Positions 17,842-27,523 of a stretch of DNA of 32,423 bases are shown here, piece after piece. The notes beneath the pieces were generated by a model. That model was not told where the DNA came from. It saw nothing but the letters and a program-made list of their open reading frames with translations, and ran no database searches. The translations under genes were made by a program, and so were the position numbers. Origin of the DNA: Bacteroidaceae bacterium (GTDB lineage: Bacteria > Bacteroidota > Bacteroidia > Bacteroidales > Bacteroidaceae); contig JAKSIS010000026.1 in assembly GCA_024398665.1 (NCBI GenBank), positions 1 through 32,423 on the forward strand, written 5' to 3'. The first letter of the stretch is position 1; the number at the start of each line of letters is the position of its first letter.

Positions 17842-20163
17842 ATGACTGATTTGAGAGAGGAACTGAATGAGAGCCAGCGTGAGGCCGTCCTTTACATGGG
17901 CGGCGACTGCATGGTCATTGCCGGAGCCGGATCCGGCAAGACGCGTGTCCTAACATACCGTATAGCACACCTGCTTGAGGAAGGCGTGGAACCGTGGTCA
18001 ATCCTGGCTCTGACATTCACCAACAAGGCTGCAGGCGAAATGAAGAGCCGCATAGCGGCACAGGTGGGTGAAAACAAGGCCCGCTATCTGTGGATGGGCA
18101 CATTCCACAGCATATTCAGCCGCATTCTGCGCAAAGAGGCTGAAAGGATAGGCTACACCCGCAACTTCACCATCTATGACCAGACTGACAGCCAGAATCT
18201 TGTCAAGTCCATTGTCCGTGAAATGCAGCTTGACGAAAAGTCATACAAGCCGTCTGTGGTGCACAACCGCATATCCAATGCGAAAAACCGCCTGATAACG
18301 GCATCGGCCTATACAGGCAGCGCTGACATATATAAGAACGATCAGTTCCGGCACATTCCCATGGCCGGCAAGGTCTATGAAGAGTATGAACGCCGTCTTC
18401 GCCAGTCCGATGCCATGGATTTCGATGACCTGCTGTTGCAGACATTCCTGCTTTTCCGTAACAATCCCGATGTGATGGAGCAGTACGGGCAGATGTTCCG
18501 CCATATTCTGGTTGACGAGTATCAGGACACGAACTACGCCCAGCACTGCATTGTATGGCAGCTGACACGTCAGGGCGCCAGTGTCTGTGTGGTCGGCGAT
18601 GATGCCCAGAGCATTTATTCGTTCCGTGGAGCCAACATTGACAACATGCTCAAGTTCCAGAAACTTTATCCTGATTCCAAGGTCTTCAAACTGGAGCAGA
18701 ACTACCGTTCCACCCGCACCATAGTCGGTGCTGCAGGCAGTCTGATTGACAAGAACCGTGAGCAGATCAGGAAAAAGGTGTTTTCCGAAAATGAGACAGG
18801 TGATCCGATACGGGTACTGCGGGCGCATTCGGACCTGGATGAGAGCGAGATGGTGGTTAACAGATTGGTTGATTTGCATACGTTTCAGGATGTTCCATGG
18901 CGCGAAATGGCTATTCTGTATAGGACCAATGCACAGTCGCGGCCGCTGGAGGAGTCGCTGCGCAAACGTGGTCTGCCGTACAGAATATACGGGGGGCTTT
19001 CATTCTACCAGCGTAAGGAGATCAAGGATATCATTGCTTATTTCCGCATGTGCATAAATCCCAATGATGAAGAAGCGTTCAAGCGCATCATCAATTATCC
19101 CGCCCGCGGTATTGGTCAGACGACGGTCAGCAAAATCCAGTCTATGGGAATGGAAAGTGGCGTAAGCTTGTGGAACGTCGTTTCACATCCGGATATATAC
19201 AGACTTGACATCAATAACGGGACAGCACAGAAACTGGCGCAGTTCGTATCACTCATAGGCGGTTTCATTGAAGATGTGCAGTCTCTTGATGCAGGCAGAC
19301 TGGCTGAACGTATAATTGATGAAACGGGTATAATGCGTGAACTCCAGGCGGACCATACCGTTGATGGTGAGAGCCGTCTGCAGAATGCGCAGGAACTGCT
19401 GTCGAACGTGACTACATTCTGCCTTGACCGTCAGGAGGAGGGTGATGACAGACGTTATATGGTCGATTATTTGAATGACGTGTCCCTTATGACTGATCAG
19501 GACAATGATACTGATGAGGACATTGAGAAGGTTACACTCATGACCGTTCATGCCGCCAAGGGACTGGAGTTTGATACAGTGTGCATAGTCGGACTGGAAG
19601 AGGAACTGTTTCCCAGCAGCATGAGTTCCGATGACGAACGTCAGATAGAGGAGGAGAGGCGGCTCTTCTATGTTGCCATGACGCGTGCCCGCAAGCATCT
19701 GATGCTGTTTTACGCCATGCAGCGTTTCCGTTATGGCAGTATTGATGCCAGTTCACCCAGCCGTTTCCTCAAAGACATAGACAGACAGTATCTGAATATG
19801 CCCGCGGATGATGTCCGCCAGGCGTGGGTGCAGCGTTCTGCATTTGATGGGGATTCAAAACCCGTATTCATGCGCCGTCAGGAAAAGCCCAAACTTGAAC
19901 AGAGGAGCCAGCCGGAACGCAAGCCGTGGCAGAAGGGCAATTTTCAGGTTGTCACAGATACCATGCTGAACAGTGCCGCTCCGGTTTCACCGGGTGAGGG
20001 GAGCCTTCATGAAGGCAATGTAATTGAACATGAACGTTTCGGAATAGGAAGTGTCCTCTCCGTTGAAGGTGAGGGTGACAACGCCAAGGCCAGAATACGT
20101 TTCCTGAATTTCGGAGAAAAGACACTTCTCCTGAAGTTTGCCCGCTACAAGATCCTCAAGTGA
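17842..20163 (+). CDS. UvrD/PcrA-type ATP-dependent DNA helicase
   Basis: A 773-residue superfamily 1A 3'-5' helicase acting in nucleotide excision/mismatch repair and in clearing proteins from DNA. Motifs in order: Q-motif LNESQREAV, Walker A GAGSGKT (Lys33), TFTNKAAGEM, Walker B DEYQD (Asp225-Glu226), GDDAQSIYSFRGA, QNYRST, TVHAAKGLEFD and VAMTRARKHL. The C-terminus ends in the basic, beta-rich segment (ARIRFLNFGEKTLLLKF) seen in PcrA/UvrD Tudor-like tails. Length is normal and no motif is missing. Codon use matches the rest of the chromosome, unlike the following two genes. It is probably the resident housekeeping copy; choosing between the names uvrD and pcrA is not possible. Confidence 0.95.
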   Translation: MTDLREELNESQREAVLYMGGDCMVIAGAGSGKTRVLTYRIAHLLEEGVEPWSILALTFTNKAAGEMKSRIAAQVGENKARYLWMGTFHSIFSRILRKEAERIGYTRNFTIYDQTDSQNLVKSIVREMQLDEKSYKPSVVHNRISNAKNRLITASAYTGSADIYKNDQFRHIPMAGKVYEEYERRLRQSDAMDFDDLLLQTFLLFRNNPDVMEQYGQMFRHILVDEYQDTNYAQHCIVWQLTRQGASVCVVGDDAQSIYSFRGANIDNMLKFQKLYPDSKVFKLEQNYRSTRTIVGAAGSLIDKNREQIRKKVFSENETGDPIRVLRAHSDLDESEMVVNRLVDLHTFQDVPWREMAILYRTNAQSRPLEESLRKRGLPYRIYGGLSFYQRKEIKDIIAYFRMCINPNDEEAFKRIINYPARGIGQTTVSKIQSMGMESGVSLWNVVSHPDIYRLDINNGTAQKLAQFVSLIGGFIEDVQSLDAGRLAERIIDETGIMRELQADHTVDGESRLQNAQELLSNVTTFCLDRQEEGDDRRYMVDYLNDVSLMTDQDNDTDEDIEKVTLMTVHAAKGLEFDTVCIVGLEEELFPSSMSSDDERQIEEERRLFYVAMTRARKHLMLFYAMQRFRYGSIDASSPSRFLKDIDRQYLNMPADDVRQAWVQRSAFDGDSKPVFMRRQEKPKLEQRSQPERKPWQKGNFQVVTDTMLNSAAPVSPGEGSLHEGNVIEHERFGIGSVLSVEGEGDNAKARIRFLNFGEKTLLLKFARYKILK

Positions 20164-20168
20164 TTGGG

Positions 20169-20259
20169 TATTCCCCAATAAAAGTGTATTAACTGCGGTG
20201 TTATTCCCCAATAAAAGTGTAATAACCGTGGCATTATTCCCCAATAAAAATGTGATTTT
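20169..20259 (+). repeat. Three direct repeats with exact 33-bp period
   Basis: Copies begin at 20169, 20202 and 20235. Each starts with TATTCCCCAATAAAA; copies 1 and 2 agree over 25 bp except one base, and copy 3 diverges at its 3' end. The 8-bp segments between copies differ. Inverted partial copies flank the array: ATTGGG at 20163-20168 (overlapping the helicase stop) and TGGGGAATA at 20308-20316, just before the next start codon. The array lies directly upstream of a promoter-like element. Regulatory binding sites are the simplest explanation. Confidence 0.85.
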
Positions 20260-20260
20260 A

Positions 20261-20291
20261 TTGCGTATGTCATTATGTTTTAATAATTTCG
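20261..20291 (+). promoter_or_regulatory. Putative promoter of the two-gene island
   Basis: TTG at 20261-20263 and TAATTTCG at 20284-20291 have suitable spacing for a -33/-7 pair, with one mismatch to TAnnTTTG. Transcription would start near 20298, giving a leader of about 22 nt that contains the inverted GGGGAATAA copy. The third 33-bp repeat ends one base before the TTG. Confidence 0.42.
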
Positions 20292-20319
20292 CATTAGAAT
20301 AATTGGATGGGGAATAAAA

Positions 20320-21630
20320 ATGAAAAGAAGCATATACAAATCCCTGCTTGAATGGAAATGCAGTAAAAACCGTAAACCTCTTGTACTTGAAGGGGCAAGA
20401 CAGGTTGGCAAGACCTATATTCTTAAAGAATTCGGTACGCGTGAATATGACAACCTGATATATATCAACTGTCATAACAATAGCTTTATGCAATCTTTGT
20501 TTGCTACAGATTTTGACATGAAGAGGGTTGTCATGTCCATATCAGCATATTCTGGTCATAAGATTGTACCTGGAAAAACTTTTCTTTTTTTTGATGAGGT
20601 CCAGGATGCTCCACGGTGTGTGGAGTCTCTTAAATATTTCTGTGAGAATGCGCCGGAACTGCATGTGGCAGTAGCCGGGTCGTTGCTTGGCATTATCAAC
20701 CATAAGGATGAATCATATCCTGTTGGTAAAGTGAATACTCTTCATTTGTATCCAATGTCTTTCGAAGAGTTCCTATGGGCACTTGGTGAGGAACTGTTGG
20801 CAGATTGCATATCAAAATGTGATTGGGCTATGCTTAATCCGCTTGATGCTACAATTCAGAACCTACTGCGACAGTATTACTATGTAGGAGGTATGCCTGA
20901 AGTCGTACTAAGTTTTGTTGAAGAGGCTGATTTGAAAAAAGTGAGAAAATTACAAAATGAGATTCTTGATAATTATGACCACGACTTCAGCAAACATGCA
21001 GGTGTGGAAACGCAACGCATTAGAATGGTTTGGAAGTCTTTGCCGTCACAATTGGCAAAAGAAAACAAGAAGTTCATTTATGGAAATGTGAAGAAAGGCG
21101 GTAGAGCAAAAGAATTTGAAAAAGCATTGCAATGGCTGGTCGATGCTGGATTGGCGTATAAGATTCACCGTTGCATGTCTCCAACTGTTCCAATTACTGT
21201 TTATGAAGATGTTGGTTCATTCAAACTGTATGCTCTGGATATCGGATTATTGGGTGCTATGAGCAATATGCCAGCCAAACTGATGCTTATCAGCAATGAT
21301 GTTTTCAAGGAAGCGAAAGGTTCTTTTTCTGAAAACTATGTATTGCAACAAATTAAGTTGTTGGATGATATCTCGATATGTTACTCCAGTAAGGATAATT
21401 CTACACAGGAAGTGGATTTTCTTGTTCAGACTGACGATCGTGTCATTCCAATGGAAGTAAAGGCGGAGGAAAACGTAAGGAGCAAATCACTACGTAGCTA
21501 TATTGTCAATGATTATTCCGACAAGCATCTGAAAGGGTTGAGGTGCTCAATGAAACAGTATGTAGATCAGGGTTGGATGGAAAATATACCGTTATATTCT
21601 GTTTGGGCATTCCTTAAAAAACAGTCATAA
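20320..21630 (+). CDS. AAA-family ATPase with DUF4143 / PD-(D/E)XK-like C-terminus
   Basis: A 436-residue protein of the widespread AAA_14 plus DUF4143 family, whose role is unknown. Walker A is GARQVGKT (Lys31), Walker B FLFFDEVQD (Asp92-Glu93), and a sensor-like VAVAGSLLG follows. The middle region is helical, with HDFSKHAG and a winged-helix-like part. The C-terminus has FSENYVLQQI (Glu338), EVDFLV (Asp366) and EVKA (Glu379, Lys381), a spacing that fits a PD-(D/E)XK nuclease-like fold with the key acids kept. The ATG at 20320 follows GGGGAATAAAA, which serves as both a possible ribosome site and an inverted repeat copy. Codon use is A+T-richer than upstream genes, suggesting transfer. The exonuclease/helicase gene follows after 22 nt, probably in one operon. 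Confidence 0.88.
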   Translation: MKRSIYKSLLEWKCSKNRKPLVLEGARQVGKTYILKEFGTREYDNLIYINCHNNSFMQSLFATDFDMKRVVMSISAYSGHKIVPGKTFLFFDEVQDAPRCVESLKYFCENAPELHVAVAGSLLGIINHKDESYPVGKVNTLHLYPMSFEEFLWALGEELLADCISKCDWAMLNPLDATIQNLLRQYYYVGGMPEVVLSFVEEADLKKVRKLQNEILDNYDHDFSKHAGVETQRIRMVWKSLPSQLAKENKKFIYGNVKKGGRAKEFEKALQWLVDAGLAYKIHRCMSPTVPITVYEDVGSFKLYALDIGLLGAMSNMPAKLMLISNDVFKEAKGSFSENYVLQQIKLLDDISICYSSKDNSTQEVDFLVQTDDRVIPMEVKAEENVRSKSLRSYIVNDYSDKHLKGLRCSMKQYVDQGWMENIPLYSVWAFLKKQS

Positions 21631-21652
21631 CTTCTTATTGTATAGATTCTTT

Positions 21653-24600
21653 ATGTCGCTTTGGAGCAAATTGATAGGAACGATTGGCGGTGAGGTTTCA
21701 CGCAATGTTTCCCGTTATGCATTTGTTGATGTTGAGGTTGGTGTTAATGATAGGAAAGTTCATGATATTGGTGCTTTGAGATGGGATGGGGCGGTATTCC
21801 ATTCTGCAGACAGAACAGCACTTATTAAATTTCTTGAGGAAGTGGATTATATATGCGGCCACAACATAATCCATCATGATGCAAAGTATCTGTTTGGAGG
21901 AGAAAAGCATCGTTGGGCTTATGTGGATACATTGTACGTCTCTCCGTTATTGTTCCCGGAAAGACCCTACCACCATCTGGTTAAAGATGACAAACTTGTC
22001 AGTGAGCAGATGAACAATCCGGTCAATGACTGTGAAAAAGCTCGCAATTTGCTGATGGATGAGGTAAGCAGGTGGAATGCAATGCCGGAAACGAAGAAGA
22101 CAATTTATGCCACATTGTTGAATGATATTCCAGAATTTTCCGGTTTCCTTGAATTTGTCGGATCCAAAGTAGCTGCAAATACACAACTGCAAGAGTTGAT
22201 ACACAAAGTCTATAAGGGTAAGATATGTGAGCATTCCGATATCGCAAGTATAATGGTGAATAACAAACCGGAACTGGCATATGCGCTCGCTTTGATAGAC
22301 ACAACAGATTTCCGTTCCATAACTCCGGCTTGGGTTTTACATAACTATCCCAACGTTGAGCATGTTGTCAAGGTGTTGCGACATATCAGGTGTGGGGCAG
22401 GCTGCGAATTCTGTAATAGAGAACTGGATGTCCATTACAATTTGAAAAAGTATTTCGGATTCGACAAGTTCCGTACATATGAGGGGGAATCTTTGCAGGA
22501 AAATGCTGTAAAAGCTGCAGTTGAAGGCAAATCGCTGCTTGCGATTTTTCCTACTGGAGGTGGTAAGTCGCTTACATTCCAATTACCTGCATTGATGGAA
22601 GGCCGTTCGCTTCATGGCTTGACTGTGGTAATATCACCTTTGCAATCTCTGATGAAGGACCAGGTGGATAATCTTGCGGAAAGAGGAATTGTTGAAGCTG
22701 TTTCAATTAATGGATTATTGGACCCCATCAATCGTGCACTGGCTATTCAGCGTGTTATGGATGGTGATGTCTCATTGTTGTATATAGCTCCAGAGATGCT
22801 GCGTTCCAGAACTGTGGAAAAGATACTGATGGCACGTCATGTGGTCCGTTTTGTAATAGATGAAGCACATTGTTTCTCATCTTGGGGACAGGATTTTCGT
22901 GTTGATTATCTTTACATTGGCAGATTTATCAGCGACTATCAGAAAAAGAAACGATGCACGTCACCAATACCGGTATCGTGTTTTACAGCTACTGCTAAAC
23001 AGAAGGTCATTCAGGATATTTGCGACTACTTCAGACAGACTTGCGGTCTTGAACTTGAACTGTTCGCATCCAACGCTTCGCGTACAAATCTCCGCTATTC
23101 CGTTATCCATGCTGATACGGATGATGACAAGTATATTAAACTCCGCTCATTGATTGCTGAATTATCCTGCTCGGCTATAGTGTACGTATCAAGAACCAGG
23201 CGGACAAAATTGTTGGCAGAGAAGTTATCTCGGGATGGATATAAGGCTCTTCCATTCAATGGCCGAATGGATGCCGATGAGAAAATAGTCAATCAGGACG
23301 CTTTCATGACAGACAAGGTCCGTATCATTGTGGCTACATCAGCCTTTGGCATGGGAGTGGACAAGAAAGACGTTGGAATGGTGATACACTATGACATTTC
23401 CGATTCTCTTGAAAACTATGTACAGGAGGCTGGTCGTGCAGGTCGTGATCCAAATCTGGAGGCGCGGTGTTATGTGTTGTATTGTGATACAGATCTTGAC
23501 AAGCATTTTATTCTGCTGAATCAGACAAAGTTGAGTATAAGTGAAATTCAACAGGTATGGAAGGCTGTAAAGGATATGACCAGACAACGTATGCGCGCAT
23601 GTTGTTCTGCGTTGGAAATAGCAAGACAGGCAGGATGGGATGATTCTGTAACTGACATTGAGACGAGAGTACGGGTGGCATTGGCGGCACTCGAGCAGGC
23701 TGGGTATATTGTAAGGGGAAACAATGTCCCCCAAATATATGCGACAGGCATTACAGTGAAGAATATGGATGAGGCCAGAAAGCGTATTACAGAATCACTG
23801 CTTTTTGAAAGTGAAGAAGTTGATAAAGCTGTTCGTATCATCAAGTCATTGATTTCACAGAAAAATATAGCCAAGGCCCAAGATTCAGAGGCGGAGTCAC
23901 GTGTGGATTATCTGGCTGATATTCTTGGGTTGAGTAAAAGTGAGGTGGTGTCTGCTGTTGAACGTATGCGACAGGAGGGCATTTTAGCCGATACGAAAGA
24001 CATTTCAGCATATTTGAATGATGTTGGAGAGTCTGAAAACAAGTCAAAACGGCTTTTGGAACGATTCACCAGATTGGAACGTTACATTCTGAATAGAATT
24101 CCTGATAAGGATGCCCTTCGAATATCTTGCAAACAATTGAACGACAATGCCCAGAATGAAGGCATCAATACTGCGACAGAAAAGGATATACGTACGATAC
24201 TCTATTTTCTGACCGTCAAAGGATATACTAGAAAAAAAGAAGATAACGCTCACAATTTGGAAGTGGTACGTCAGTCGGATCTCGAAACGACAATAAAACG
24301 TTTTGAAAAACGCCTTGAGATATGCAACTTCTCTGTTGAATGGCTGTATAGACTGATGCCACAGACAACTGCTGTTGGTGACTCACAGAATAATGGCATA
24401 CAATTTTCCGTTGTTGAGTTGCTGAAAGATATACAGGCAAGAGGTCAGAGCCTGTTCGGAACACTTCAGGATGTCAAATTGGAAGATGTGGAAGAAGCAT
24501 TATTGTATCTCTCAAAAATCGGCGCATTGAAACTGGAAGGAGGCTTTCTTGTCCTTTACAATGCTATGGATATCCGTCGTATCAAAGACAGCAAATTGCG

Positions 24601-26533
24601 TTATAAACAGGAAGATTATCGTATGCTGAATGAGTTTTACAAACAGAAAATCCAGCAGGTCCATATTGTCGGTGAATATGCAAATCTTATGGTGAAGGAT
24701 TATTCTGCTGCTTTGCAGTATGTGAAAGATTACTTCCAAATGGATTATAGGCGTTTCGTATCGAAGTATTTCAAAGGTAATCGTGTTCAGGAGATTGAAA
24801 GGAACGTGACTCCTGAGAAATACCGTCAATTGTTTGGCGATTTGTCGGAGAAACAGATGGAAATTATCTCGGACAAGGAATCACGATGTATTGTAGTGGC
24901 AGCGGGACCTGGGAGTGGAAAGACACGTGTACTGGTTCATAAACTGGCTTCTTTGCTATTGTTGGAAGATGTCAAGCATGAACAATTGTTGATGCTTACA
25001 TTTTCACGGGCTGCTGCCATCGAGTTTAAACAACGGCTGATGGGGCTTATCGGTAATGCGGCACATTTTGTGGAAATAAAGACTTTCCATTCGTATTGCT
25101 TCGATTTGCTGGGAAGAATAGGCAATTTGGATGATTCGAAGGATGTCGTGTCACGTGCTGCTCAAATGATACGTGACGGTGAAGTGGAGCCCAACCGTAT
25201 AGCCAAGACTGTGCTTGTGATAGATGAGGCGCAGGATATGAGTGCGGAAGAATATGAACTTATTCATGCTCTAATGGCTGCAAATGAGGATATGCGTGTA
25301 ATTGCAGTAGGAGACGATGATCAGAACATATATGAGTTCCGCGGTTCAAAATCTACTTATTTGTCACAACTGCTTAATGTTTCTGATGGGAAGTTTGTGG
25401 AGATGACCGAAAATTACCGGAGTGACAGGCATGTGGTCAGTTTTGCCAATGCTTTCGTCAAGGGTATTCGTGATAGGATGAAGAACATGCCTATTGTTTC
25501 AATGAGTGGAGAGAATGGTTTTGTAGGTGTGACGCACCATTACTCCACTTATATGTTTGAACCGCTTGTACGTGAACTGATCGCTAATCGTGGCGCATCT
25601 TCTATTGGTGTGCTTACACAGACAAATGAGGAGGCTGTCATTCTTGTGGCATTATTGAGAAAGAATGGATTGCAAAGCAAACTGATTCAGAGCATGGATG
25701 GTATCAGGTTCTGGAATCTGATGGAAGTACGACAGTTCCTGAAGTATATTGATTCAGCTACACATACTCCTCTTATTCCTGATGATGTGTGGGAAGATGC
25801 CAAACGTAAGACATATGATGTTTATTCAAATTCAGAAAGCCTGCATTATCTTCAACGCTGCACCAGGTTATTTGAAGAGACAAACCAGGCAAAATATCTT
25901 ACTGATTTTAAGGAGTATGTTTTTGAGTCATCTGTTGAGGATTTCTGTGATTACTCTGGGGCTGGCGTCATTGTGTCAACCATTCATAAATCTAAAGGTC
26001 GTGAATTTGATGATGTCTATATGTTACTTAGCGAACCGCTGACATATAATGAGGAAGTGCTTCGCCGCTATTATGTTGGAATGACAAGAGCCAGACATCG
26101 TCTTTTTATTCATACAAACTGTTCTATGTTTGACGGTTTTCCTGCAGATAAGAAAAGCGTTGATAGGAATAAATATGATATGCCCGATGAAATTGTACTT
26201 CAACTGTCGCACAAAGACGTAAATCTGGGCTATTTCAAATCAAGAAAGAAAGTGATTCTTTCATTAAGGGCAGGTGAAAGACTGCGTTATGATAATGCTT
26301 TCCTGCTTGATGATAGGACAAATACGCAGGTTTGTCAGTTATCACAAAGAATGCAGGCGGAACTTGAAGAATGGATAGAAAAGGGATACAATGTTTCTGC
26401 GGCATCTGTCCGTTTTATTGTAGCATGGCGTGCCAAGGATGCTCCCAAGAAGGAGGAAGAACATGCAGTCCTGCTTGTTGATCTGCAATTGCGCAGAACG
26501 CAATTGCAGGATGATTCAGTACCGTGCCAGTGA
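21653..26533 (+). CDS. DEDD exonuclease–RecQ helicase–UvrD helicase fusion protein
   Basis: A 1626-residue multidomain DNA enzyme. Residues about 20-135 look like a DnaQ-type 3'-5' exonuclease: FVDVEVG (Asp26, Glu28), GHNIIHHDAKYL (Asp76) and VNDCEKARNLL (Asp126). A CX3CX2C cluster (Cys247, 251, 254) follows. Residues about 275-620 are a RecQ-type SF2 helicase: PTGGGKS (Lys305), DEAH (Asp403), TSAFGMGVDKKD and QEAGRAGRD (from 591). About 620-1060 seems helical/winged-helix. Residues about 1065-1500 are a UvrD-like SF1 helicase: AAGPGSGKT (Lys1090), DEAQD (Asp1191), GDDDQNIYEFRGS, TENYRS, HKSKGREFD and VGMTRAR. No domain looks broken. A TTG at 21638 is in frame, but the ATG at 21653 is preferred. 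Both helicase motors keep their ATPase motifs. Its end overlaps the convergent lipoprotein gene by 18 bp. The biological role is unknown; repair or anti-phage defence are both possible. Confidence 0.9.
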   Translation: MSLWSKLIGTIGGEVSRNVSRYAFVDVEVGVNDRKVHDIGALRWDGAVFHSADRTALIKFLEEVDYICGHNIIHHDAKYLFGGEKHRWAYVDTLYVSPLLFPERPYHHLVKDDKLVSEQMNNPVNDCEKARNLLMDEVSRWNAMPETKKTIYATLLNDIPEFSGFLEFVGSKVAANTQLQELIHKVYKGKICEHSDIASIMVNNKPELAYALALIDTTDFRSITPAWVLHNYPNVEHVVKVLRHIRCGAGCEFCNRELDVHYNLKKYFGFDKFRTYEGESLQENAVKAAVEGKSLLAIFPTGGGKSLTFQLPALMEGRSLHGLTVVISPLQSLMKDQVDNLAERGIVEAVSINGLLDPINRALAIQRVMDGDVSLLYIAPEMLRSRTVEKILMARHVVRFVIDEAHCFSSWGQDFRVDYLYIGRFISDYQKKKRCTSPIPVSCFTATAKQKVIQDICDYFRQTCGLELELFASNASRTNLRYSVIHADTDDDKYIKLRSLIAELSCSAIVYVSRTRRTKLLAEKLSRDGYKALPFNGRMDADEKIVNQDAFMTDKVRIIVATSAFGMGVDKKDVGMVIHYDISDSLENYVQEAGRAGRDPNLEARCYVLYCDTDLDKHFILLNQTKLSISEIQQVWKAVKDMTRQRMRACCSALEIARQAGWDDSVTDIETRVRVALAALEQAGYIVRGNNVPQIYATGITVKNMDEARKRITESLLFESEEVDKAVRIIKSLISQKNIAKAQDSEAESRVDYLADILGLSKSEVVSAVERMRQEGILADTKDISAYLNDVGESENKSKRLLERFTRLERYILNRIPDKDALRISCKQLNDNAQNEGINTATEKDIRTILYFLTVKGYTRKKEDNAHNLEVVRQSDLETTIKRFEKRLEICNFSVEWLYRLMPQTTAVGDSQNNGIQFSVVELLKDIQARGQSLFGTLQDVKLEDVEEALLYLSKIGALKLEGGFLVLYNAMDIRRIKDSKLRYKQEDYRMLNEFYKQKIQQVHIVGEYANLMVKDYSAALQYVKDYFQMDYRRFVSKYFKGNRVQEIERNVTPEKYRQLFGDLSEKQMEIISDKESRCIVVAAGPGSGKTRVLVHKLASLLLLEDVKHEQLLMLTFSRAAAIEFKQRLMGLIGNAAHFVEIKTFHSYCFDLLGRIGNLDDSKDVVSRAAQMIRDGEVEPNRIAKTVLVIDEAQDMSAEEYELIHALMAANEDMRVIAVGDDDQNIYEFRGSKSTYLSQLLNVSDGKFVEMTENYRSDRHVVSFANAFVKGIRDRMKNMPIVSMSGENGFVGVTHHYSTYMFEPLVRELIANRGASSIGVLTQTNEEAVILVALLRKNGLQSKLIQSMDGIRFWNLMEVRQFLKYIDSATHTPLIPDDVWEDAKRKTYDVYSNSESLHYLQRCTRLFEETNQAKYLTDFKEYVFESSVEDFCDYSGAGVIVSTIHKSKGREFDDVYMLLSEPLTYNEEVLRRYYVGMTRARHRLFIHTNCSMFDGFPADKKSVDRNKYDMPDEIVLQLSHKDVNLGYFKSRKKVILSLRAGERLRYDNAFLLDDRTNTQVCQLSQRMQAELEEWIEKGYNVSAASVRFIVAWRAKDAPKKEEEHAVLLVDLQLRRTQLQDDSVPCQ
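26483..26509. terminator. Perfect 11-bp inverted repeat at the convergent gene ends
   Basis: CTGCAATTGCG (26483-26493) and CGCAATTGCAG (26499-26509) are exact reverse complements around a 5-nt loop. The structure lies inside the last codons of the fusion helicase and just past the stop codon of the facing lipoprotein gene. It would form a stable hairpin on both RNAs. There is no U-run, so it may be a factor-assisted bidirectional terminator or a boundary mark. Confidence 0.5.
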
Positions 26534-27523
26534 CATGCTGTCACGCCTTTCAACATATGTACCCAGAATGCCTGTGCCGCTGCCTTGAATGTTGGTCCAC
26601 AGTGTTATGGGTTCGCTCATGATTCCGCTCTGGTTCATGAATTTCCTTACGGATTTCTGGTAGGTGTATGTGGCCAGGGACATGGAGCGGACACTGTATC
26701 GGACAGAAAATTCAGCACGTACGGTAGGCATATTGAAAAGACTGTCCAAGGATTCCCTGAGTATCTCGAATTCAAAATGGGTGGTGTCTGACAACTGCCT
26801 GTCAGTGAATGTGAAACTGTGCGCGCCGGTGCATACCACAGGAATAAGGTCCATCATGTCAATGAATGAGTTGGCCGTGTCCAGCATTTCAACGGCGATC
26901 ATCGTGCCTGTGGGAAGACGGTAGCTCAAGGGCAGATGTATGGTGTCAGTCGTGATACCGTTCCACATTACAACGGTGGAATAGGGGTCAAACTCCAGCT
27001 GGAAGTAACGGTTTGAGGATTCGCCTTTCAAGAGGCTCAGGTCGAACACGCATACGGAATCGATGCTTCCTACGTCAAGCCCCTGATAGTATATGGTGTC
27101 AATTGAAACGCCGTTCATTGCGAACGGACGGTAAAACGTGTCAACGCTCCATTCTATCTGCTGCGGGACTGTGTCTGTGGCTGTAATGCTGCCGTATTCG
27201 GGATGGCTGGCGCTTATGCTGACAACGCTGCCCGGCTGCAGCGTGCGGACATCGGCATAGCGCATGGTCTCACTGTCATATGTCAGTCTGCGACTTACTC
27301 CGTCAATTGTCATGCTGACATCGGCGTCGGTGACTGCGGCTGCAGCGGTGCGCGGTTCCAGGAAGAATGTGCTGCGCGTAAGTCTCAGATATGCAGTGTC
27401 ACCTGCGCGGTTCATGCTGTTGGCTACAAGTATGGGGCCGCTGTCACTGCCGCGGTACTCTATGTCCTTTGTACATGCGCATGCAAGAAGTCCGATGAGA
27501 ATTGTGGTGACAGTTTTCTTCAT
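26516..27523 (-). CDS. DUF4249-family outer-membrane lipoprotein
   Basis: A 335-residue lipoprotein with signal peptide (about 1-15) and a lipobox around LLACAC; Cys15 or Cys17 would be lipidated. The sequence suits the DUF4249 family: an early LVANSMNRAGDTAYLRLTRS strand pair, an Ig-like VTDADVSMTIDGV segment, then a beta-rich domain with NRYFQLEFDPY. It is 5 nt downstream of the TonB-dependent receptor gene on the same strand, the usual pairing for this family. It is therefore likely to be a surface partner of that receptor. The ligand is unknown. Confidence 0.87.
   Translation of the reverse strand: MKKTVTTILIGLLACACTKDIEYRGSDSGPILVANSMNRAGDTAYLRLTRSTFFLEPRTAAAAVTDADVSMTIDGVSRRLTYDSETMRYADVRTLQPGSVVSISASHPEYGSITATDTVPQQIEWSVDTFYRPFAMNGVSIDTIYYQGLDVGSIDSVCVFDLSLLKGESSNRYFQLEFDPYSTVVMWNGITTDTIHLPLSYRLPTGTMIAVEMLDTANSFIDMMDLIPVVCTGAHSFTFTDRQLSDTTHFEFEILRESLDSLFNMPTVRAEFSVRYSVRSMSLATYTYQKSVRKFMNQSGIMSEPITLWTNIQGSGTGILGTYVERRDSMSLARY

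Follow-up and report, generated by a model that had tools for sequence, protein, structure and literature searches.

PDC-S01 is a very common and apparently unvalidated candidate defence family: the source papers place it fourth by frequency among the defences of all prokaryotes, state a PD-(D/E)XK nuclease assignment for the family, describe validation as pending for most PDC candidates (PMC12988326) and count 10,358 occurrences in rumen genomes (PMC13356809). For direct repeats placed over a defence promoter, a tested precedent is RptR, a small repressor of a restriction-modification island which, in the available text, acts at three direct repeats at a defence promoter, two of them over the -10 box (PMC12255303). 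Here, we describe an evenly spaced array of operator-like repeats in front of a PDC-S01 gene, encoding a DUF4143 ATPase-nuclease, and the exonuclease-RecQ-UvrD fusion gene that follows it, in a stretch of 32,423 nucleotides (hereafter the window) from a Bacteroidaceae bacterium (contig JAKSIS010000026.1 of assembly GCA_024398665.1, our contig C19, in a draft genome of 2.24 Mb that is 84% complete). An upstream array is not mentioned in the available parts of the two PDC-S01 papers (PMC12988326; PMC13356809), and no report of one for DUF4143 genes appeared among the open-access papers listed; the combination thus seems to be that of a known candidate family with a seemingly unreported cis-element.

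In the window, three copies of TATTCCCCAATAAAARTGT stand at positions 20169-20253, in exact 33-nt steps, within the gap 20164-20319 that precedes the DUF4143 gene. The repeats in this 156-nt gap are absent from an earlier reading of the window made from its letters (the sequence-only reading). The features of this part are:

20169..20187, + strand: operator-like repeat 1, TATTCCCCAATAAAAGTGT (repeat search)
20202..20220, + strand: operator-like repeat 2, the same sequence as repeat 1, after a step of 33 nt (repeat search)
20235..20253, + strand: operator-like repeat 3, with one base changed, after another step of 33 nt (repeat search)
20320..21630, + strand: DUF4143 ATPase-nuclease of the PDC-S01 family, 436 aa (Pfam; PADLOC PDLC04786, E 3.9e-171)
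20371..20775, + strand: AAA_14 ATPase domain, residues 18-152 (Pfam; K31, D92 and E93 conserved)
20980..21465, + strand: DUF4143 region, residues 221-382, with the PD-(D/E)XK-like residues E338, E364, D366 and E379-x-K381 (Pfam; conservation)

With at most one mismatch, TTCCCCAATAAAA occurs three times in the window vs a mean of 0.03 in shuffles, and the sole other match in the genome at up to three mismatches has three of them and lies on another contig. The protein encoded behind the array had been read as an AAA ATPase with a nuclease-like tail, a description that the profile matches and conserved residues support. Pfam finds AAA_14 (E 1.5e-29) and DUF4143 (E 3.9e-30) and no further domain type; the ATP-site residues K31, D92 and E93 are kept in all 131 aligned homologues, while E338, E364, D366, E379 and K381, which we take to be the signature of a PD-(D/E)XK-type nuclease, are kept in 129, 130, 112 (with 19 E), 131 and 131 of the 131, respectively. 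A profile search against solved structures gave 13 chains at E <=1, all around the ATP site, with midasin as the best. The PADLOC model PDLC04786 covers residues 1-431 at E 3.9e-171, making the window protein a clear, full-length member of PDC-S01. A second DUF4143 gene of the same genome (contig C16; loci L252 and L330) is preceded by three 33-nt repeats of the unrelated GATTTTGAGGAAATTGCGAAA, which stay in open frame upstream of the likely start.

Evenly spaced upstream repeats accompany most of the DUF4143 members that we examined. A first look at 30 DUF4143 upstream regions revealed similar arrays in nearly all of them, each with another sequence. In a strict test on 103 distinct genes, requiring two 14-mers to match at 12 positions or more at distances of 20-109 nt, the spacing was 33 nt in 54 loci, 32 in 22, 66 in 30, 65 in 8 and 99 in 7, with no more than 4 loci at any remaining distance, and the 33-nt spacing was met in 2 of 99 downstream regions and in 12 of 693 upstream regions of other genes. 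A looser test covered 188 distinct genes (11 identical proteins and two short upstream regions were dropped, 3 of 206 loci gave no hit, and partial hits were skipped and left untallied) and recovered repeats at 31-35-nt steps in 151 of them vs 60 of 693 other upstream regions, the DUF4143 downstream regions giving 23 of 180. Among the 278 steps, 203 are of 33 nt, 61 of 32 and 14 of other lengths, i.e., 264 are of 32 or 33 nt; the number of genes with steps in other ranges was 32 (21-25 nt), 26 (26-30), 14 (36-40), 11 (41-45) and 14 (46-50) of the 188. Three or more copies were present in 95 of the 188 genes vs 7 of the 693 others, and with one shuffle per locus arrays appeared in 5 of 133 shuffled vs 105 of 133 real sequences, 10 rows having been dropped for short upstream regions, duplicates or partial hits. 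Chance repeats are ruled out by these shuffles and by the upstream regions of other genes. Sorted by identity to the window protein, arrays were found in 3/3 genes at >=60%, 63/67 at 45-60%, 54/63 at 30-36% and 11/16 below 30%.

Arrays were also present in 9 of 11 plasmid copies read, five of these 11 being among the 188 genes, and they extend over six phyla: Glaesserella, Vibrio and Acinetobacter (Pseudomonadota), Fusobacterium animalis (Fusobacteriota), Collinsella (Actinomycetota), Criblamydia (Chlamydiota), Vescimonas and Agathobacter (Bacillota) and Parabacteroides (Bacteroidota). Three of the nine consist of two copies only. On the Glaesserella parasuis plasmid (L185), the DUF4143 gene stands directly before a type III restriction-modification pair. 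Two records labelled as plasmids, NZ_OL790812.1 (4.09 Mb) and NZ_CP084075.1 (2.11 Mb), are probably chromosomes. Repeats of PDC-S01 type, TTATCTTCGAAAAAAGAGTG and TTATCTCCGGAAAAAGTGTA, 34 nt apart, also lie upstream of a short gene unlike DUF4143 (L054:23964-24383, - strand), where they are perhaps an orphan array.

The repeat unit itself has a recognizable build. Nearer relatives have a common half-site, AAAARTGT, in each repeat, and 106 of the 188 DUF4143 genes have two or more AAARTGY sites in the 200 nt upstream vs 14 of 693 others (7 of 282 when A+T-rich). The units of Vibrio and Acinetobacter consist of two such half-sites in inverted orientation to each other (e.g., CACTTTTATGCGCATAAAAATG), and such dyads were met in 15 of the 188 genes vs 2 of the 693. 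Units were analyzed at 71 loci with >=43% identity, 58 of which yielded two or more units containing the core; the tag, by which we mean positions -10 to -2 ahead of the core, matches at 0.72-0.88 within a locus vs 0.31-0.57 between loci, the first range being raised by the choice of units for their likeness within a locus and the core, fixed by the search pattern, proving nothing. The copies of an array share their tag, which changes together from locus to locus. An exact array with the tag of the window was found in none of 200 other genomes of the family, as expected because the tag is locus-specific. Since 10 of the 58 arrays have the opposite orientation, double-stranded DNA rather than RNA is indicated as the target. 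Finally, TAnnTTTG, the -7 motif of Bacteroidota promoters, keeps to a single register: it begins at core+6 in 26 of the 48 forward loci, and none of the other offsets between -16 and +16 is used, although only those that overlap the core are barred by the core letters and those outside it were free; the unit that bears the motif is the last in 17 of the 26 loci, the next to last in 7 and the third from last in 2. About every second forward array has a repeat lying on the promoter motif.

Self-repression is the reading that accounts most simply for steps fixed at 32-33 bp, for cognate tags and for the overlap with the promoter. We consider it rather likely, on the sequence evidence, that the insert consists of two independent mobile genes stacked on each other and that the DUF4143 ATPase-nuclease binds its own array and represses itself. 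Its subunits would bind the array as a neighbouring row, at 32-33 bp steps (about three helical turns), the bound row would repress its own promoter, and a trigger such as invading DNA would release the protein, leading to expression and nuclease action. The fusion, which lacks an upstream region of its own here and lies 22 nt behind the DUF4143 gene, would share the control of the array and be expressed from the same promoter; it would act as a single-chain processor of DNA ends or forks (DEDD exonuclease, RecQ motor and UvrD motor), probably against invading DNA. That DUF4143 itself reads the array, the repressive effect, the trigger and a defence role of either gene are inferred. Regulation has been seen in the DUF4143 family, since in the available part of one study the RNA of Thermus thermophilus TT_P0211 (AAA 14, DUF4143) rose 6.6-fold with plasmid DNA in an Argonaute-bearing strain (PMC4406477). 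The likeness is that of a DUF4143 gene whose expression responds, and the rise concerns one gene in one table and is possibly indirect.

Several points weigh against self-repression by the DUF4143 protein. Every locus was found through DUF4143, so that the linked product is an ATPase-nuclease by design, and a separate regulator could read the array. The loci were moreover chosen by similarity to the window protein, and their fractions are not those of PDC-S01 at large; genes at 36-45% identity form a weak spot (20 of the 39 have repeats, and only 5 have three copies or more), and the spacing test found no array at the B. thetaiotaomicron (L189) and F. vincentii (L376) loci. At least two AAARTGY sites are present in 61 of 70 genes at >=45% identity vs 45 of 118 below, i.e., mainly in near relatives, and the exact TAnnTTTG is absent upstream of the window DUF4143 gene. 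Tag similarity follows protein similarity (rho 0.78, 28 disjoint pairs), which speaks for self-binding, yet common descent would produce the same trend. With whole-protein identity controlled, the tag in clade 1 (57 proteins) goes with residues 341-400, which belong to the nuclease part, more closely than with any region outside them (partial Mantel 0.236; maximum of 400 permutations 0.136), while the same test on 46 distant proteins gave -0.19 for the nuclease region, so that the sign of clade 1 did not hold. With disjoint pairs and eight regions, only the loop 350-366 went in the expected direction (rho 0.47, p 0.011). Being strong in clade 1, failing in the distant set and weak in disjoint pairs, the nuclease domain as reader of the tag is a lead only. 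If followed further, it would give a self-addressed PDC-S01, in which the nuclease domain reads the locus tag, a private address written 2-6 times at 32-33 bp over the promoter, the same contact silences the gene and checks the nuclease, invading DNA or loss of the array releases the nuclease, and array and gene form the moving unit; we regard this extended version as a tentative possibility, with low confidence.

The boundaries of the insert are given by the following features:

17842..20163, + strand: left flanking host gene, a PcrA/UvrD-type helicase (profile matches, comparison with relatives)
20161..20165, no strand: TGATT at the left junction, i.e., the PcrA stop codon and two nt (vs the G119 empty site)
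26512..26516, no strand: TGATT at the right junction (vs the G119 empty site)
26516..27523, - strand: right flanking host gene (the name DUF4249 comes from the sequence-only reading only)

The sequence-only reading had proposed a transferred island of two co-oriented genes, 22 nt apart, richer in A+T than its flanks and bordered on the left by a helicase gene, and these claims stand. Profile matches identify the gene at 17842-20163 as PcrA-type; between its end and that of the reverse-strand gene at 26516 extends an A+T-rich stretch of 6.35 kb, with a G+C content in 1-kb windows of 0.39-0.44 vs mostly 0.49-0.56 on both sides and third-position values of 0.378 (DUF4143 gene) and 0.398 (fusion gene) vs 0.589-0.683 in eight other genes of the window. 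This stretch is a transferred insert, confirmed by relatives which have the same flanks and an empty site. In genome G119, which has the closest PcrA of the genus search (86% identical), both flanking genes end about 10 nt apart at an empty junction; in the other two genomes compared, G133 and G189, they are about 40 nt apart and the right-hand gene is more distant (33-36% identical). In 17 of 37 genus genomes this right-hand gene was not found at E 1e-30. The empty junction of G119 has one TGATT and the window insert has one at either end, a single case which is possibly a target duplication or microhomology.

An unlikely alternative to self-repression is one of mobility, in which the array would be the left end of a mobile unit and the ATPase-nuclease would recognize it to move array and gene, for which TnsA/TnsC-like pairs of a nuclease and an AAA protein provide a comparison. 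The window insert starts 3 nt ahead of the first repeat, with TGATT at both junctions. Among 77 pairs of related loci, which overlap and are not independent, the homologous DNA breaks off no more than 5 nt from the first repeat in 40 and no more than 15 nt from the stop codon in 52. Furthermore, L188 and L233, which are 98% identical, share only 128 nt upstream, the first repeat being at 127, and yet 557 nt downstream. However, the homology runs on for over 50 nt past the array in 11 of the 77 pairs and ends within the array in 9, the 33-nt spacing is found downstream of the gene in just 2 of 99 regions, and Pfam gives the protein ATPase and DUF4143 domains only. The overlap with the -7 motif is explained by regulation and not by movement, and conservation of array and gene alone would give the same boundaries. 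No second clean empty site was found: for another DUF4143 copy, the left flank is present in G080 and G542 with a different sequence following it, and the plasmid searches for empty sites gave none that was usable and two partial matches.

Somewhat less probable still is that the array serves as a sensing or baiting site, on which the nuclease would sit inactive until competing DNA titrated or activated it, with repression as a by-product. This would fit the conservation of the nuclease residues in 112 to 131 of 131 homologues and the tracking of the tag by residues 341-400 in clade 1, as well as the company of K389 and TC at -9/-8, seen in 34 of 43 proteins and in 0 of 15 with other residues at 389. 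On the other side, the tracking was not replicated in the distant set, and for clade 1 pairs below 60% identity the region 221-300 also rises above the 99% line (0.121). Allowing a slip of one position weakens the residue-389 link to 39 of 43 vs 9 of 15, and the disjoint pairs support the loop 350-366 only. A residue-389 'code' as such was rejected: it is confounded by phylogeny, its cluster-level p is 0.012 and other columns score better.

The second gene of the insert has features of its own:

21653..26533, + strand: exonuclease-RecQ-UvrD fusion gene (the ORF extends upstream to TTG 21638; the last ~11 codons are apparently host flank)
21722..22042, + strand: putative DEDD exonuclease region, residues 29-135, with D31, E33, D81 and D131 (conservation)
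22430..23587, + strand: RecQ-type helicase core, residues 265-650 (TIGR00614; PDB RecQ5, RecQ, BLM and WRN)
24830..26122, + strand: UvrD/PcrA-type helicase core, residues 1065-1495 (Pfam, NCBIfam and PDB profile matches)

The list of open reading frames (ORFs) puts the start at TTG 21638; since most printed homologues begin with MS-x-W, ATG 21653 is the likely start, which gives the gap of 22 nt. Homologues cease to match near residue 1620 of 1631, so that the gene has apparently lost its own stop and ends in ~11 codons of host sequence. Of the three modules announced by the sequence-only reading, RecQ and UvrD are borne out, with ATP motifs intact in both cores, while the N-terminal exonuclease has no Pfam match even at E 5 and rests on acidic residues (D31, E33, D81 and D131) each kept in >=97% of 104 aligned fusion proteins. 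In our reading this N-terminus is a DEDD exonuclease in which Asn126 takes the place of the His of DnaQ-like enzymes. Ahead of the RecQ core, cysteines 252, 256 and 259 are invariant. The RecQ family model TIGR00614 scores 261.9 bits vs a cut-off of 219.8, the only one over its cut-off among the best 25 of 36 NCBIfam models; the stricter RecQ equivalogs TIGR01389 and NF008279 stay below theirs. The domains match RecQ helicases, UvrD/PcrA helicases, DpdF and GajB, and none of the best 25 of 67 matching PADLOC models spans the chain. DpdF and 7-deazaguanine DNA modification were rejected (NF041063, 191.3 bits vs a cut-off of 550), as was Gabija: among the models shown GajB matches the UvrD part only, and the upstream gene, the neighbour that was scanned, matches PDC-S01 and not GajA. 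The sequence-only reading did not recognize the pair as a named system; of the two proteins, DUF4143 matches the PADLOC candidate PDC-S01. No literature on the fusion appeared among the open-access papers listed.

A near full-length fusion occurs in 32 of 201 family genomes, three of these rows having one internal stop, and among the 12 same-genus genomes within the 201 it is present only in that of the window. Plasmids also carry relatives of 27-34% identity, in Pseudomonadota, in a Campylobacterota species and in a cyanobacterium; the matches at E <=1e-100 comprise 24 plasmid records. Among Bacteroides copies close to each other, the shared sequence measures about 290 nt upstream and often only 5-20 nt downstream, with exceptions. 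With this shared upstream region of its own and mostly unique neighbours (200 of 252 are singletons), the fusion seems to be a helicase-nuclease gene that stands alone and moves horizontally. To judge from its domains, the protein most likely unwinds DNA ends or forks and trims them, whether in defence or in repair. The 33-nt spacing is not a property of the fusion, being present in only 3 of 102 fusion upstream regions. Runs resembling AAAGTTCGGAGA precede genes near the fusion at L071, L078 and L083, with steps such as 20-21, 33 and 46 nt. A gene one or two positions from the fusion in 6 of 80 named loci (L046, L054, L075, L076, L081 and L094) is presumably DnaK-like by its sequence and suggests a recurrent insertion neighbourhood. 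L083, labelled Roseburia, has the same fusion neighbours as L027, a genome of the family of the window, and its contig is thus probably misbinned.

It is very improbable, and largely refuted, that both genes belong to a single conserved defence operon of helicase-nuclease type, which the sequence-only reading had suspected. Their 22-nt gap, common strand and similarly low G+C would suit an operon. Other DUF4143 relatives lie at +-1 of the fusion in 4 of 80 named loci by profile (L036, L044, L077 and L107; Pfam confirms three), and four PDC-S01 members were found by PADLOC among 95 near neighbours, PDC-S01 being outside the 25 most frequent families shown at +-5 or +-6 genes, where at least one DUF4143 gene stands (L044:9217). 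These near and far sets each comprise 95 of 100 neighbours of >=150 aa, the five omitted being mostly the longest and the far set being a random draw. Against an operon, a DUF4143 gene of the same subfamily adjoins the fusion in only 1 of 110 loci, that of the window, close Bacteroides fusion copies have the shared upstream region noted above, and most neighbours of the fusion are singletons; the 110 loci, like the 104 proteins, mix two collections that share some genomes, and some loci are cut by contig ends. The sequence-only reading had itself named rare co-occurrence as refuting, and on this check the result went against the pair. Two of the 95 near neighbours match the AbiP2 reverse transcriptase model, which hints at defence-type company and is not an enrichment test.

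An RNA leader (riboswitch-like or for translation control) is hardly credible: the repeats do precede the gene, and some of the copies come after the -7 motif, but the unit bearing the motif is the last in 17 of 26 loci, so that most copies are upstream of it, 10 of 58 arrays are inverted and the Rfam matches in the window are two tRNAs only.

The array gives PDC-S01 direct tests in the form of a binding site, a reporter promoter and a candidate specificity region, and it lets complete PDC-S01 units be told from broken ones. A gene met once behind an array promoter, as the fusion is here, may be under its control without being a partner. If self-addressing were true, each copy of a very common candidate defence gene would carry a private address. 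Iteron-binding replication initiators and autoregulated toxin-antitoxin operators also have repeats at a promoter whose gene encodes the presumed binder; the difference is that here the linked product is an AAA ATPase-nuclease. Compared with RptR, which in the available text is a regulator of its own, small in size, whose 9-bp repeats are built on a fixed TAGCTA (PMC12255303), the presumed reader of the window array is the effector itself, the steps are of 32-33 bp and the tag varies by locus.

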